64,000 nucleotides of DNA from an uncultured Clostridia bacterium. GTDB taxonomy: Bacteria > Bacillota > Clostridia > Christensenellales > Borkfalkiaceae. How positions within the stretch are numbered: the stretch's first letter is position 1; each line of letters begins with the position of its first letter. Made by a program: the position numbers and the translations under genes. Under the pieces are notes generated by a model that was given only the letters and a program-made list of their open reading frames with translations, ran no database searches and was not told the DNA's origin. This document shows positions 56,651 to 64,000 of this stretch, one piece after another. The stretch lies in the NCBI GenBank assembly GCA_944354535.1, contig CALVPY010000004.1, forward strand, positions 1-64,000, in the 5' to 3' direction.

Positions 56651-56797
56651 ATCATTCGCCATATTTCGTCATTTTTCTTGCCTGCACGTTTTTTTCTTGC
56701 CGCGATGTTCGTTTATTACATTTTTATTACAAAAGCGGGGGAGGATTTATAAAACTTTTTGCTATGCTGGATCCATCAAATCATAGGAGAATACAAT

Positions 56798-59287
56798 ATG
56801 AAAAAGGTAAAACGGATCGCCGCCGCGGCGATGGGCGCCGCGCTCTGCTTCTCGGTATGCGGCACGGCATTCCCCGTGATCGCCGGGGCGGAGACGCTTA
56901 CGGGTACGCCCTATGCCGAGGACGGCAGCTACGATGTCTCCGTTCCCCACGTCGTCGTGGGTCAGGTGTTCGGCGCTTCGGACGACGCGGAGGTCGTCAG
57001 CCACAGCTTCATCGAACTTTATAACCCCGCAAAAGAGGCAGTCTCTCTCGCGGGCTGGCAGCTTTCCTACCGCTCGAGCGCGGACGGCAAGCACAATGAA
57101 GAATGGCTGTCCCTTATGCTTGAAGGCAGCATTGCCGCCAAGGGGCACTATCTCGTGCGCTGCGGGCAGACGGACCAAGTTTCCGCGGGTGCTCTCCTCG
57201 TCCCCGAAGGGGATATGGAGTGGGACGTGCAGCTGCACAACAAGGGCGTCGCGGTGGCGCTTTTCGACCGCGCCGTCACGCTGACCGACTCTTTTGCGGG
57301 CGCCGTTACCGACGAAAACAGGCCCGAGGGCTATGTGGACGTGCTCGCCGTGCAGGGGAACGATGCCGAGGATGCACAGATCCCGCCCGTCTATGAGGGC
57401 GCTTACGAGGACATACAGTCCAAGAAAAAGGCGGTGCGCCGCGTAAACTTCGCGGATACCGACGACAACGCCGCCGATGCGGACGAGCTTGATTATTCGG
57501 AAGTGATGCCCGAAGATAAGCCTGTCCTCAACAGCAAGGGCGAAAGCGTCACCCGTCAGACGGCATATGAAGTGAAGGAAGACAGCTTCGAAAAGGACGC
57601 CGCGCTCACCCTGAAGAAGGCAGGCGGCATCAAGCTGGGCGAGGTGAATGCGGACGGCGGCGTCGCCGAGATCGTCTCCTACAACGCCGACAACGGCAAG
57701 GCGTACGTCGTCAACGGGCAGGAGTCCATCCTCAACGTCTTCTCCGTCAACGCAGACGGCAGCTTCGGCACGGCGGAAAAACTCGATGTCAAGGCACTCA
57801 TGCAGGAAGAGGACGCTTCCTTTACCTACGGCGATATGACGAGCGTTGCCGTCGATCCCGTTCACGACCGCATCGCCGTGGCTCTGCAGGATGCCGATTA
57901 CACCAAAAGCGGCCGTATCGCCGTGCTCAACTACGACAACGAGATCGTCGCTGTCTATAAAACGGGCGTGCAGCCCGATATGATCGTCTTTGCCGCCGAC
58001 GGAAGATACATCCTTACGGCGGATGAGGGCGAGCCGCGCGAGGGGTACGGCGAAAGCGCCGTCGATCCTGCGGGCAGCGTCACCGTCGTCGACACCGAGA
58101 CGGATGCCGTCAAAGTGGCAGACTTTGCGGGCTTCGACGCCGCAGAGCTTGCAAAAGAGGGCGTCGTATTCAATAAGATGGACGGTGAGATCGTCTCCGC
58201 CGCGCTCGATCTGGAGCCCGAGTACATCGCGGCCTCCGGTACGACCGCTTACGTTGCACTGCAGGAGGCCAACGCCGTTGCCGTGCTCGACATTGCATCG
58301 GGCGAGTTCACCGATATTTTCCCGCTCGGCTTTAAGGACTACGGCAAGGAAGAGAACGCCGTCGATCTCGACGATTCGGACGGCAAATATCTCCCCAAGA
58401 CTTATGAAAACACTTACGGCGTCTACATGCCCGACGGCATTTCCCTCTACGAGGCGGACGGCAGGACGTACCTTCTCACCGCCAACGAGGGCGACGCCCG
58501 CGAGTGGGGGGAATTCTGCGACGAGATCAAGCGCGATCTCACCTCCGCGGACGGCAGCGTGACCGCCGAAAAAGTGCGCGTGCTCGACAACTCGGTCAAG
58601 GCGGGCATCGGCGAGGGCAATTATCTCTACGGCGCGCGTTCATTCAGCCTCTTCGAGGTGACGGAGGCGGGCCTCAACCTCATCTTCGACAGTGCCAACG
58701 ACTTTGAGAGCAAAACGTACGAGTATCTTCCCGAGTATTATAACGTCTCCAACGACGATATCGAACTCGAGAGCCGTTCTGCCAAGAAGGGCATCGAGCC
58801 CGAAGCGGTCACGGTGGCGGCGGTCGCAGGCAGATCATATGCCTTCATCGCCCTCGAGCGCATCGGCGGCATCATGGTCTACGATATCACCGATCCTTCC
58901 GCCGTCTCATACGTCAACTATATCAACACGCGCGATTTCAACGGCGCCACCGAGGGCGACGTCGCTCCCGAAGGGCTTGCGGTCGTTGAGAACGGGGAGG
59001 GGGTATATCTTCTTGCCGCCTTCGAAGTATCGGGTACCGTCGCTTCCTTTGAATTGACGGCAGCCGAGGAACCCACGCCCGAGCCCGAACCTGAACCCGA
59101 GCCGGAGCCCGAACCGGAGCCCGAACCTGAACCCGAGCCGGAGCCCGAACCGGAGCCCGAACCCGAGCCCGAGCCCGAGCCCGAACCCGATACCGAGACG
59201 CCCGTCGTCTGGATCGTCGTCGGCTGTGTGGCTGCCCTCATCGTTGTCGGCGTGCTCATATGGGTGCTTGCCCGCCGCAAAAAGTAA
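56798..59287 (+). CDS. Surface protein: lamin-tail-like domain, choice-of-anchor I type propeller, Glu-Pro stalk, membrane anchor
   Basis: 829 residues with a cleavable signal (about 1-32, ending AGAET). A lamin-tail-like domain (about 45-170, [20 protein letters not shown]) is followed by a large propeller of the choice-of-anchor I kind (about 280-755, [15 protein letters not shown] and [14 protein letters not shown]). A run of alternating Glu and Pro (about 761-800) forms a stiff wall-spanning stalk, then one membrane helix ([20 protein letters not shown]) and RRKK. Function unknown; some relatives are annotated as phosphatases. RBS AGGAG precedes the ATG at 56798. Confidence 0.85.
59078..59190 (+). 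repeat. Glu-Pro coding minisatellite
   Basis: Hexamer-like units (GAGCCC, GAACCT, GAACCG) coding Glu-Pro, with a perfect 36-bp direct repeat at 59087-59122 and 59123-59158. Length variation between strains would change stalk length without shifting the frame in steps of six. Confidence 0.85.
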
Positions 59288-60478: not shown

Positions 60479-60598
60479 TGTGCCTCTTTGGGCTGCCGTT
60501 TAGCCGATGAATTATTGTATATTGAATAACATCAAGGGAAGTTATCGAAAATATCATAAAAAACGATAGCACGCGGAGCGTTTCCTTTCACAATGTGT

Positions 60599-60682: not shown

Positions 60683-61537
60683 ATGAGCAAAAAAAAGACA
60701 GCGGTCTTTCTGATCGTCGCTGCCGCCGTCATCGCGGCGCTCGTTGTGGGCATCGTCCTTACGGACGGGCTCTACGAAAAGGCGGGCTCCGTCAACGAGA
60801 CGATGCAGGACGCCGTGCTGCACGAGGGCGATAAAATAAGCTTTTTCGGGCTTGCCGTCAATCCCGCCGTCCTCTCGGCATTCGTCGTCACGGGCATCCT
60901 GCTTATTTTTGCGGCTATCGTGCGCATCTTTGTCATTCCCAAGTTTTCCTATATCCCAAGTAAGTTCCAGCTGCTTCTGGAGCAGGCGGTGGGGATGTTC
61001 GAAAACCTTGCAAAGACCAACAGCCCGCACCGCAACAACTTTTTGGGGGCATACCTCTTTGCGGCGGGGGCGTACATCAGCATCGGCACCCTGTTTGAGC
61101 TCGTCGGCATCCCGTGGATGACGGCGGCGGGGGCTTCCGTTTCGCTGCCCGCGCCCCTTTCCGACATCAACGGCGCGATCATGATGGGGTGTCTTTCCTA
61201 TCTCGTCATCCTCTCGGGCGGCATCCTTTCCAACGGATTCCGCGGCGTGGGGCGGACGCTGAAAGAGTTTTCCCTGCCTATCTCCATGAGTTTCCGTCTC
61301 TTCGGCGCGCTTTTGTCGGGGCTGCTCGTCACCGAGCTCGTCTATTCCTATCTCGCGCTCTCCTTCGTGCTGCCCGTCGTCGTGGGCGTGCTCTTCACCA
61401 TTCTGCACGCCCTCATCCAGACGTATGTGCTCACCATGCTCACGGCGCTCTTCTACGGCGAAGTGAGCGAGCCGCCCGTCCTCAAACCCAAGACCAAAAA
61501 ACAAAAGAAAGTTCCTTCGGAGGTCACATCCAAATGA
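60683..61537 (+). CDS. atpB: ATP synthase Fo subunit a
   Basis: 284 residues. Forms the ion half-channels next to the c ring. The essential arginine is R205 in SMSFRLFGALLSG, in the fourth of about five to six helices; the canonical neighbouring sequence FGN is FGA here. RBS AAGGAGG sits before the ATG at 60683; the 30 codons upstream in frame overlap the promoter. No atpI precedes it. The last codons overlap atpE as ATGA, so translation is coupled. Confidence 0.93.
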   Translation: MSKKKTAVFLIVAAAVIAALVVGIVLTDGLYEKAGSVNETMQDAVLHEGDKISFFGLAVNPAVLSAFVVTGILLIFAAIVRIFVIPKFSYIPSKFQLLLEQAVGMFENLAKTNSPHRNNFLGAYLFAAGAYISIGTLFELVGIPWMTAAGASVSLPAPLSDINGAIMMGCLSYLVILSGGILSNGFRGVGRTLKEFSLPISMSFRLFGALLSGLLVTELVYSYLALSFVLPVVVGVLFTILHALIQTYVLTMLTALFYGEVSEPPVLKPKTKKQKKVPSEVTSK

Positions 61538-61974
61538 AACAGCTCACTTCTATGAAAAAGATCGTCTTTGCAGTCTGCATCGTCTTTGCGCTCCTTTCCG
61601 CGGCGCTCCTCATCACGGGCTTTGCGATGAACGCGAACGAGCCCGCCTTTACGGATCCCGTTCTCGTCGTATTCGCCGAAGAAGCGGCGGGGGAGACGGC
61701 TGATGAAACGCAGCCCGCCGAAGAGACGGCGGAAGAGGCGGAGGATAGCTCCATCGGCGCCAAGGCGATCGGCGCGGGCATCGCGGTCGGGCTTGCGGCT
61801 GCTGCGGGCGCCGTCGGCATGGGCATCGCGGTCGCCAAGACGAGCGAAGCAACGGCGCGCCAGCCCGAAGCGGAGGGCAAGATCCGTTCTTCTTTGATGC
61901 TCGGCCTCGTCTTCATCGAGACGGCGATCATCTACGCCCTCATCGTCGCCATCCTCATCATCTTCGTCCTGTAA
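61534..61974 (+). CDS. atpE: ATP synthase Fo subunit c with long N-terminal extension
   Basis: 146 residues; usual c subunits have 70-90. The C-terminal 75 residues are the normal two-helix hairpin: GIAVGLAAAAGAVGMGIAVA, the polar loop ARQPE and LGLVFIETAIIYALIVA, with ion-binding E129. In front are an extra hydrophobic segment (about 8-32) resembling a signal peptide, and an acidic linker (about 47-72). The start is well supported: ATGA overlap with atpB and GGAGGT eight bases before. Thr130 and Tyr134 match sodium-type rings, but the helix-1 glutamine of those rings is Met, so the coupling ion is undecided. Confidence 0.9.
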   Translation: MKQLTSMKKIVFAVCIVFALLSAALLITGFAMNANEPAFTDPVLVVFAEEAAGETADETQPAEETAEEAEDSSIGAKAIGAGIAVGLAAAAGAVGMGIAVAKTSEATARQPEAEGKIRSSLMLGLVFIETAIIYALIVAILIIFVL

Positions 61975-61986
61975 CGGAGGGCAGCC

Positions 61987-62502
61987 ATGCTGTACAATAT
62001 CGCGGCAGTGCCGCTCAACATCGATTGGCAGCAAATTTTGCTGCACCTTCTCAATTTCGTCATCCTCTTTGCGGGGCTGTATCTCCTTTTGTATAAGCCC
62101 GTCAAGGCGTTCATGCAAAAGCGCAGGGAACACTACGAGAAGATGGACAAAGACGCTGAGGAACAGTCCAAAAAGGCGGACGCGGCGCGCGCGGAGTACG
62201 AAGAAAAGCTCTCTTCGTGCGACCGCGAGATCGAAGAAAAGCGCGCGGCGGCAAAGAAGGAGCTCGACCATTACGAACAGATGAGAAAGAGCGCCGCCGA
62301 AGAGGAGGCGGACGCCATCCTTGCGGAAGCGCGCAAGAAGGCAGCCGAAGAAAAGCGGCACGCCCTGCGCGCGGCACGGCGGGAAATTTCCGCGCTCGTT
62401 TCGGATGCGACGGAAAAACTCGTCTTGAAAGAGACGGCGCAGGAAGCATACGATCAGTTCCTCGACGCCGCCGACGATAAGCATGAGGAGCCCCGCGCAT
62501 GA
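61987..62502 (+). CDS. atpF: ATP synthase Fo subunit b
   Basis: 171 residues: one N-terminal membrane helix ([20 protein letters not shown]), the conserved YKPVKAFM turn, then a long charged coiled coil of the peripheral stalk. RBS GGAGGG precedes the ATG. Its stop overlaps the next start as ATGA. Normally the next gene is atpH (delta); here it is the delta-alpha fusion, so the C-terminal end of b should contact a delta domain carried by alpha. Confidence 0.92.
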
Positions 62503-64000
62503 GCCGCACCGCCTATCTCTACGCCGCCCTCCCGCCCACAAAGGAGCAGGAGGAGCGCTTTTTGGCCTTTCTGAAGGAGCGCTATCACGAAGAGTTCACG
62601 CTCGAATACCGCGAGAGCAAGGCGTATCCGGGCGGCTTCCGCCTCGAAGTGGGGGCGGAGGTCTTCGATTGGAGTCTGAGCGGCAGGTTCCGCCAGCTCA
62701 AGGACGCCCTCATGCAGGCGATCAGCGAGAGCGGGGACATCATCCCCCTTCTTCGCACCCGCCTCGACGAGTGGACGCCCAAAGCGATCGCCGAAGAGAT
62801 CGGCACCGTGATCTCGGTGGGCGACGGCATCGCCGAAGTGAGCGGGCTCGAACACGCCGAATACGGCGAAATTTTGCTCTTTTCCGCGGGCATCCGCGGC
62901 ATGGTGCTCAATCTGAAGCGTGAGAGCGTGGGCTGCATCCTCTTCGGCGACGAGAGCGCCGTTTCGGAGGGGAGCGCCGTCCGCCGTACCAAGCGCCGCG
63001 CGGGCATGCCCGTCGGCGAGCGCTTTTTAGGGCGCGTCGTGGGGGCGCTCGGCGACCCCGTCGACGGTTTGGGCGAGATCATGGCGGAAGGCTACCGCCC
63101 CGTTGAAGCGCCCGCGCCCGGCATCATCGATCGTCAGCCCGTCAATAAGCCTTTGGAAACGGGCATCCTTGCCATCGACAGTATGTTCCCCATCGGCAGG
63201 GGGCAGCGCGAACTCATCATCGGCGACAGGGGCACGGGCAAGACCGCCATCGCCCTCGATGCCATTTTGAACCAAAAAGATAAGAACGTCGTCTGTATCT
63301 ATGTCGCGATCGGGCAGAAGGCGAGCTCGGTCGCCCGTCTCGTGGAAACGCTCCGCTCGCACGGCGCGCTCGATCATACCGTCGTCGTCAACGCTTCGGC
63401 GGGGGAGTCGGCGTCGCTGCAATACATCGCCCCGTACGCGGGCTGCGCGCTCGGCGAGTACTTCATGGAGCGCGGAAGGGACGTGCTCATCGTCTATGAC
63501 GACCTTTCCAAGCACGCCGTCGCATACCGCGCTTTGAGCCTGCTTTTGGGGCGTTCCCCGGGCAGAGAGGCGTACCCCGGCGACGTCTTTTACCTGCATT
63601 CCCGCCTTTTGGAGCGGGCGGCGCACCTTTCCGAGGCGCGCGGCGGCGGGTCCATGACGGCGCTTCCCATCGTGGAGACGCAGGGCGGCGACGTCTCGGC
63701 GTATATCCCCACCAACATCATCTCCATCACGGACGGGCAGATCTTCCTCGAAAGTTCGCTCTTCTTCGCAGGGCAGCGGCCCGCCGTCAACGTGGGACTT
63801 TCCGTCTCGCGCGTAGGCGGCGACGCGCAGACCGGGGCGATGAAGCGCGCTTCGGGTACGCTGCGCCTCGATCTTGCCCAATACCGCGAGATCGAAGTGT
63901 TCACGCAGTTTTCGAGCGACCTCGACGAAGCCACCCGTCTGCAGCTTCGGTACGGCCACGGGCTCATGCTGCTCCTTCGGCAGAAGCAGGGCTGCCCCAT
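62499..64000 (+). CDS. atpA: ATP synthase F1 subunit alpha with N-terminal delta domain fusion (3' end cut)
   Basis: Open to the window end (500 codons). Residues 1-73 match the C-terminal domain of the delta subunit: [20 protein letters not shown] at the start and [20 protein letters not shown], equivalent to the delta signature around GG and D-x-S. From residue 74 it is a normal alpha chain: [19 protein letters not shown], Walker A GDRGTGKT at 242-249 (offset about 73 from E. coli alpha), [13 protein letters not shown] and [10 protein letters not shown]. No break in frame lies between the parts and no separate atpH exists between atpF and this gene. Start is the ATG overlapping the b stop. 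Confidence 0.9.

Follow-up and report, generated by a model that had tools for sequence, protein, structure and literature searches.

A delta C-terminal domain at the head of ATP synthase alpha in Clostridia: a natural counterpart of an engineered enzyme

The ATP synthase operon that closes the window (the whole stretch of 64,000 nucleotides analyzed here) of a gut bacterium poses the question of how an F-type enzyme is built when its alpha gene opens with a delta-like domain, and of how many peripheral stalks such an enzyme would hold. The atpA-type ORF concerned (62499-64238, + strand) encodes 579 residues, or ∼63 kDa as estimated from that length. It passes the end of the window, and the remainder was read from locus L032 (2700-4439), which is the same contig past the window and the source of the fusion's 3' end and of gamma, beta and epsilon.

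Profile matches confirm fusion residues 1 to 71 (62499..62711, +) as the C-terminal domain (CTD) of ATP synthase delta, in frame with a complete alpha; the assignment draws on PF00213, a lineage profile, AF2 and dN/dS. At the protein level, Pfam places PF00213 (OSCP) at residues 5 to 71 (profile 105 to 172 of 172, E 2.5e-7), above the curated cut-off, with three ATP-synt_ab domains C-terminal to it, and the fusion passes the equivalog TIGR00962 atpA with 722.1 bits against a cut-off of 484.45. Alpha is thus full length, as the first-pass annotation had proposed. Its reading that the gene starts with the delta CTD likewise stands on significant PF00213 and lineage-profile matches, but its boundary after 73 residues does not, as the domain stops near residue 71. 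A linker (residues 72 to 79) and a remnant of the alpha N-terminal helix (residues 80 to 92) follow at 62712..62774 (+; AF2 helix 81 to 91, TIGR00962 match from residue 79), and the alpha core occupies 62775..64000 (+; PF02874, PF00006, PF00306, TIGR00962), the gene running on to 64238 beyond the window.

The lineage profile, built from 19 sequences (residues 1 to 73 of 16 fusions, and three free domains), matches 24 distinct solved sequences in the PDB at E <= 0.01. Their names are those of delta, OSCP and its mitochondrial equivalents, b-delta or 'multifunctional fusion' proteins, and an engineered delta-alpha; the top match is Bacillus PS3 delta (108-176, E 1.1e-10). The lone 73-residue sequence gives a marginal result, with a best E of 0.024. 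Structurally, the AF2 model of the fusion (single chain, 56-row alignment, mean pLDDT 82.7) contains a strand at residues 3-9, a helix at 15-29, strands at 33-39, 47-51 and 54-57, a helix at 60-75 and the alpha helix at 81-91.

A search of the whole assembly (1.93 Mb, 92.8% complete) with PF00213 at E <= 10 returns one match, inside the alpha gene (profile 104 to 172, E 4.2e-8). No second delta gene was found in that search, which bears out the earlier description of an operon without atpH and extends it to the assembly. The delta N-terminal domain (NTD), also described there as missing, is absent, the OSCP match covering only profile 104 to 172; the separate delta with NTD and CTD that is usual for F1Fo was thus not found in the assembly.

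The operon runs in the order a, c, b, deltaCTD-alpha, gamma, beta, epsilon, with Pfam families for all seven products; encoded together, these identify a complete F-type ATP synthase (F1Fo). Subunit a (atpB, 60683..61537, +; PF00119, E 1.1e-13) has an uncertain start within an ORF that opens at 60593. Subunit c (atpE, 61534..61974, +; start read from sequence) has a long extension N-terminal to the c hairpin, PF00137 matching its C-terminal part (E 9.4e-16). By eye, the extension (61534-61740) comprises ∼70 residues with a hydrophobic segment and an acidic stretch, and PF00137 falls only on the later part. Subunit b (atpF, 61987..62502, +; PF00430, E 1.4e-17) is a separate ORF of 171 residues, whose C-terminal tail is expected to be the partner of the delta domain. 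Subunits a and b have one match each in the whole assembly, and epsilon keeps both domains according to Pfam. The genome also encodes a V/A-type ATPase subunit (PF01992, contig 8) and an Rnf/Nqr-type subunit (PF03116, contig 34), the latter in keeping with a way of life based on an ion gradient. Also noted by eye were ORFs resembling phosphofructokinase, exopolyphosphatase and polyphosphate kinase 3' of epsilon (L032:7362-10701), and an 842-residue ORF in the window (56759-59287) with a long Glu-Pro repeat followed by a C-terminal hydrophobic segment.

The ATG of the fusion at 62499 overlaps the stop codon of b, no earlier in-frame start exists, and a Shine-Dalgarno-like GAGGAG read from the sequence (62485..62490, +) lies 8 nt upstream. 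The delta domain is under purifying selection. Over residues 2 to 71, dN/dS in six close pairs is 0.213, 0.201 and 0.275 (window against L047, L048 and L049) and 0.260, 0.184 and 0.194 (L047-L049, L050-L053 and L050-L054), and it is 0.11-0.47 in seven comparisons of the window with L050 to L056. These values exceed those of alpha residues 100 to 579 in 11 of 13 pairs and are below 0.5 in all 13, so the N-terminal extension is translated and constrained. Selection on these residues supports the upstream start and speaks against translation beginning near residue 74, which the first-pass annotation had named as grounds for abandoning the fusion.

The closest known system is an engineered one. 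In the reasoning of Ueno et al. 2025, the delta NTD sits on the three-fold axis and limits F1 to one stalk; their Bacillus PS3 deltaDN-alpha FoF1, with the NTD removed and the CTD joined to alpha, has up to three stalks and a subunits, an H+/ATP ratio of 5.8 ± 0.4 versus 3.0 ± 0.2, and synthesizes ATP at about half the motive force (PMC12229609). Ions per turn are proposed to equal c subunits times a subunits, and triple-stalk particles are very rare by cryo-EM, for which the authors blame stalk loss. The same paper states that all ATP synthases so far described have one a subunit, differences in ion cost being put down to c-ring size.

The window enzyme is a natural counterpart of deltaDN-alpha FoF1: both lack the delta NTD and carry the CTD fused by a short linker to the alpha N-terminus, and in the window genome the CTD occurs alone, in frame with a full alpha and with no other delta. 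Among the 60 PDB matches listed of 68 for the whole fusion, the engineered chain 9jc1_I is the sole one to span residues 5 to 570. In the structure search with the AF2 model, 9jc1 chains take ranks 1 to 3 (577, 577 and 573 columns; TM 0.79-0.82 by query length), and ranks 4 to 50 align over 474-515 columns. The two enzymes differ in that the engineered one is described with the epsilon C-terminal domain removed, whereas the natural operon keeps it, and in that stalk number was measured there and is a prediction here.

Natural fusions of this kind also have a precedent, in another lineage. Acidaminococcus belongs to the Negativicutes, whereas the window enzyme is nearest to Candidatus Gallimonas (Clostridia). 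The Discussion of Ueno et al. names natural delta-alpha fusions from sequence (Acidaminococcus fermentans, UniProt G4Q3K6, A0A1I2C5T3; PMC12229609), and the A. fermentans protein as described there likewise joins an NTD-less delta to alpha. The delta-alpha fusion as a kind was therefore already reported in 2025, and the earlier statement that none had been described is overturned by the engineered and natural cases of that paper. A literature search that took in few subscription papers and not bioRxiv found no description of a natural delta-alpha fusion beyond Ueno et al., and neither native biochemistry nor a complex structure of any such natural fusion was found in the literature.

Two other systems share features with the window enzyme. 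The mycobacterial b-delta protein (PDB 7jg5 chain d; Niu et al. 2017, PMC5709465) also fuses peripheral-stalk subunits and contains the same delta CTD, but there delta is joined to b and alpha is separate, whereas b of the window is its own ORF. N-ATPases, described as alternate F1F0 ATPases (Dibrova et al. 2010 as cited in PMC5706428), likewise lack a separate delta gene, their long b ending in a delta-like domain (e.g. L115). Their operon order is given as beta-epsilon-...-a-c-b-alpha-gamma (PMC5709465), unlike the a-c-b-(delta)alpha-gamma-beta-epsilon of the window. An N-ATPase identity was rejected on gene order and on scores below the model cut-offs for alpha (TIGR03324, 596.8 vs 750.5 bits) and b (TIGR03321, 46.4 vs 224.7 bits).

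The engineered enzyme suggests how the natural one could work. Its delta has lost the NTD, the part that, according to Ueno et al. (PMC12229609), limits F1 to one stalk, and with the b-binding CTD as the N-terminus of alpha each F1 carries three b-docking domains. The enzyme probably assembles b2 peripheral stalks beyond a single one, to a maximum of three, each with its own a subunit; more a subunits would mean more ions per turn, allowing ATP to be made at low motive force. By analogy with the construct as described there, three delta domains per F1 would likely allow up to three b2 stalks, which would answer the stoichiometry puzzle of a delta domain on alpha. The sequence shows the docking domains on alpha; that more than one stalk site is used and the H+/ATP ratio raised is what we infer from it. 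The window enzyme is, in our judgment, probably a naturally multi-stalk, low-gear ATP synthase.

The fusion is found in many related genomes, among Candidatus Gallimonas and other Clostridia, which settles affirmatively whether relatives keep it. Among records with a name, Candidatus Gallimonas gallistercoris comes nearest (Clostridia incertae sedis; 99% over the N-terminal 123 residues). When the whole fusion protein was compared with 101 genomes, 40 matched at E <= 1e-40, namely the window's own, 16 of the 60 genus-sample genomes (G001-G060) and 23 of the 40 genomes G061-G100. No F-type alpha match was found in 44 of the 60 genus-sample genomes, which shows that the genus can do without the enzyme. 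The 17 genus genomes with a match contain the fusion in 14 cases, a separate tandem-CTD protein with a plain alpha in two (G027, G050), and an alpha fragment without its N-terminus in one (G049).

In the order sample, PF00213 matches at E <= 1e-4 in 144 of 297 genomes. With classes assigned by frame length and profile start (fusion length being a frame of >= 559 residues), 24 genomes have a full delta, 83 a C-terminal-only match in a fusion-length frame, and 38 a free CTD (one of them tandem; G313 may be a fragment), while the single b-deltaCTD genome proved on later testing to hold an N-ATPase b; G094 and G332 are each counted in two classes. A stop lies in the upstream part of the match in 15 of the 83, and the four of these that were read (G064, G114, G153, G244) are fusions. 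Uninterrupted fusions occur in at least 46 of 391 class-sample genomes and at least 22 of 398 phylum-sample genomes, two overlapping samples whose counts are lower bounds. The 46 class-sample fusions are not all C-terminal-only: eight of their frames measure 671-691 residues, and each of the three that were read (G581, G484, G651) proved to be a full delta-alpha fusion. A wider genome collection has 220 stretches that code for relatives of the fusion N-terminus, and the best 80 of these 220 are deltaCTD-alpha fusions without exception (80 of 80); as the search was seeded with the fusion's delta motif and ranked by likeness to one, this shows spread and not frequency. By record title, many carriers among these best 80 of 220 are gut and rumen Clostridia. 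One deltaCTD-alpha fusion (L174) sits in the record of Oscillibacter sp. ER4, which we take to be a cultured isolate.

Alpha trees (FastTree; IQ-TREE quick) indicate a complex history. They contain 143 alpha cores, thinned by likeness from 277 alpha ORFs (267 of them >= 440 residues); two labels for which the script found no upstream match were set by hand (L117, free CTD; L082, full delta), and the N-ATPase b locus L115 is still one row. The fused label changes 11 or 12 times on these trees, and presence or absence of the delta NTD five times, at least four of them forced by starred branches, so NTD change is recurrent. The window's clade (55 rows, support 99*) includes three full delta-alpha fusions, which suggests that fusion preceded the loss of the NTD. 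A second clade (34 rows, 96*) holds 18 free CTDs, 14 fusions and two tandem CTDs, suggesting NTD loss first and then repeated fusion. These directions of change are themselves deduced, given that the trees have no root and that support is poor for 51 of their 140 inner branches. Of the alphas accompanied by a full separate delta, 35 of 39 carry the alpha N-terminal motif [ED][ED]IS, compared with 1 of 73 deltaCTD-alpha fusions, 1 of 19 alphas with a free CTD, none of the three full delta-alpha fusions and neither of the two alphas beside a multi-CTD delta.

Relatives carry further architectures. Three loci of a single family of the order, f11, encode b'-deltaCTD-alpha as one chain of 746-754 residues beside a separate b of 142-143 residues (L104:6430-8667; L105:5343-7604, minus strand; L106:5095-7335, minus strand); they are the f11 frames of 746-791 residues in the order-sample search. 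In each of the three, Pfam OSCP spans 98-100 to 170-172, and PF00430 (ATP-synt_B) matches only L104. Our own b profile scores 61, 66 and 19 bits for L104, L105 and L106, and b' in the latter two rests on this profile and a hydrophobic N-terminal helix. Their alphas form a single clade (support 100*), and with b' on each alpha, alpha3 would bring three b' strands. For a model of the triple fusion (mean pLDDT 80.2), 9jc1 is again the top structural match, with a looser fit (TM 0.57 by query length, rmsd 8.0). Other f11 genomes have a full delta (G201, G226, G311 and the second operon of G332) or a free CTD (G249, G301, G342).

Two loci of one genus, in the window's family but a different genus from it, encode deltaCTD-deltaCTD-alpha of 676-680 residues (L109:5022-7061 and L110:5325-7352, both minus strand), and in the same operons b (233-249 residues) has its C-terminal tail twice. 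The second tail reaches 17.2 and 14.8 bits with a profile drawn from 91 tails of other loci, a score that none of 1000 shuffles equalled. The link between tail repeats and tandem delta domains is not strict, since one genome with a single delta domain (L029/L058/L136, one contig) has part of a second tail (17 residues, 16.1 bits). Outside the order, full delta-alpha fusions of 669-690 residues (L259, L260, L261) keep the NTD, so a delta can be joined to alpha without losing it. Free tandem CTDs of 131 residues (L111, L118), free single CTD subunits (e.g. L112, L113, L114), and separate deltas with one NTD and one or two extra CTDs, hence two or three b-docking domains (L274:5771-6553, 261 residues; L275:5237-6280, 348 residues), complete the series. 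Two candidates were rejected: L115 as a new b-deltaCTD fusion, since it is an N-ATPase b (TIGR03321, 291.6 bits vs a cut-off of 224.7), and two delta domains in L212 and L216, where alpha begins at residues 124 and 119 and leaves no room, so that both were counted as single.

Some genomes hold a conventional and a fused operon together: G094 (L033, L034), G332 (L123, L106) and G484 (L227, L260). In the class sample, a full delta with a fused match elsewhere occurs in at least 12 of 391 genomes (G377, G436, G484, G526, G546, G566, G583, G601, G649, G651, G685, G718), nine in f58 and three in f74. Such side-by-side enzymes would suit two gears. None of these variants (b'-delta-alpha chains, tandem delta-alpha with a duplicated b tail, full delta-alpha fusions, free delta CTDs, genomes with both enzymes) came up in the literature search described above.

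How else might the locus be explained? An assembly error, a missed atpH or a non-functional remnant could mimic the fusion, the source being a metagenome assembly of 92.8% completeness, but such an artefact or decaying gene is scarcely credible: a separate assembly (L124) has the same fusion at 99% identity over the N-terminus, the fusion is in 80 of 80 of the best 80 of 220 loci of the motif-seeded search, from several projects' records, dN/dS below 0.5 in all 13 pairs argues against decay, and the other subunits of the operon have near-complete Pfam matches. A gene with two products, in which a start at residue 72 yields plain alpha and F1 combines about one delta-alpha with two alphas, is unlikely. 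An AAGGA followed after 7 nt by an ATG at 62712 (62700-62714) does provide a start-like site there, L047 and L125 also have a residue-72 start with a Shine-Dalgarno-like motif, and an alpha from residue 72 would begin near the usual alpha N-terminus. Against this, an in-frame ATG with such a motif lies in the junction of 9 of 123 distinct fusion genes versus 9.2% of control windows inside alpha, and residue 72 is methionine in just 4 of 14 same-genus alignment rows; the internal start was rejected because the site is not enriched among fusion genes.

The more serious alternative is a single-stalk enzyme, in which the fusion replaces the NTD as F1 anchor, one of the three delta domains binds b2 and two stay idle. 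We consider this doubtful, although it would agree with the one a subunit of all ATP synthases described so far, according to Ueno et al. (PMC12229609), and with one a gene and one b gene in the assembly; the domain also occurs without fusion as free CTD subunits (L112, L113, L114), and nothing in the sequence fixes the b:alpha ratio. In the engineered enzyme as described there, the freed sites can be filled, with up to three stalks and three a subunits assembling, which supports the multi-stalk reading. Its strongest support among relatives comes from the b'-deltaCTD-alpha chains, where a single stalk would idle two b' strands despite a hydrophobic N-terminal helix on each, and from the loci in which delta domain and b tail are duplicated together. 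Recurrent NTD loss and the near-absence of [ED][ED]IS in deltaCTD-alpha add to it. Several observations weigh on the other side: full delta-alpha fusions would put three NTDs on one F1, which the simple account does not easily accommodate, and they also lack the motif (0/3), as do alphas beside a multi-CTD delta (0/2); free CTD subunits, common in the order (38 genomes), could serve once per F1; the partial second b tail sits in a single-domain genome; and triple-stalk engineered particles are reported there as very rare by cryo-EM. The V/A-type ATPase subunit of the window genome and the patchiness of F-type alpha in the genus also count against a multi-stalk, low-gear enzyme.

The window fusion is real, conserved and under selection, and interest lies in its breadth and in the variants around it. 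Whether Clostridia hold a large natural group of multi-stalk, low-gear F-type ATP synthases, containing as many as three a subunits and arrived at along several routes (free CTD, alpha fusion, tandem CTDs with a duplicated b tail, b'-CTD-alpha) and in some genomes with two gears, is to us an evenly balanced proposition. Annotation may read deltaCTD-alpha operons as lacking delta; Niu et al. 2017 lists Clostridia units without delta (PMC5709465), which may include fusions. Through natural enzymes with three stalk-docking domains, the ion cost of ATP could be set in a second way besides c-ring size, and with them the question of natural multi-stalk enzymes becomes directly testable.
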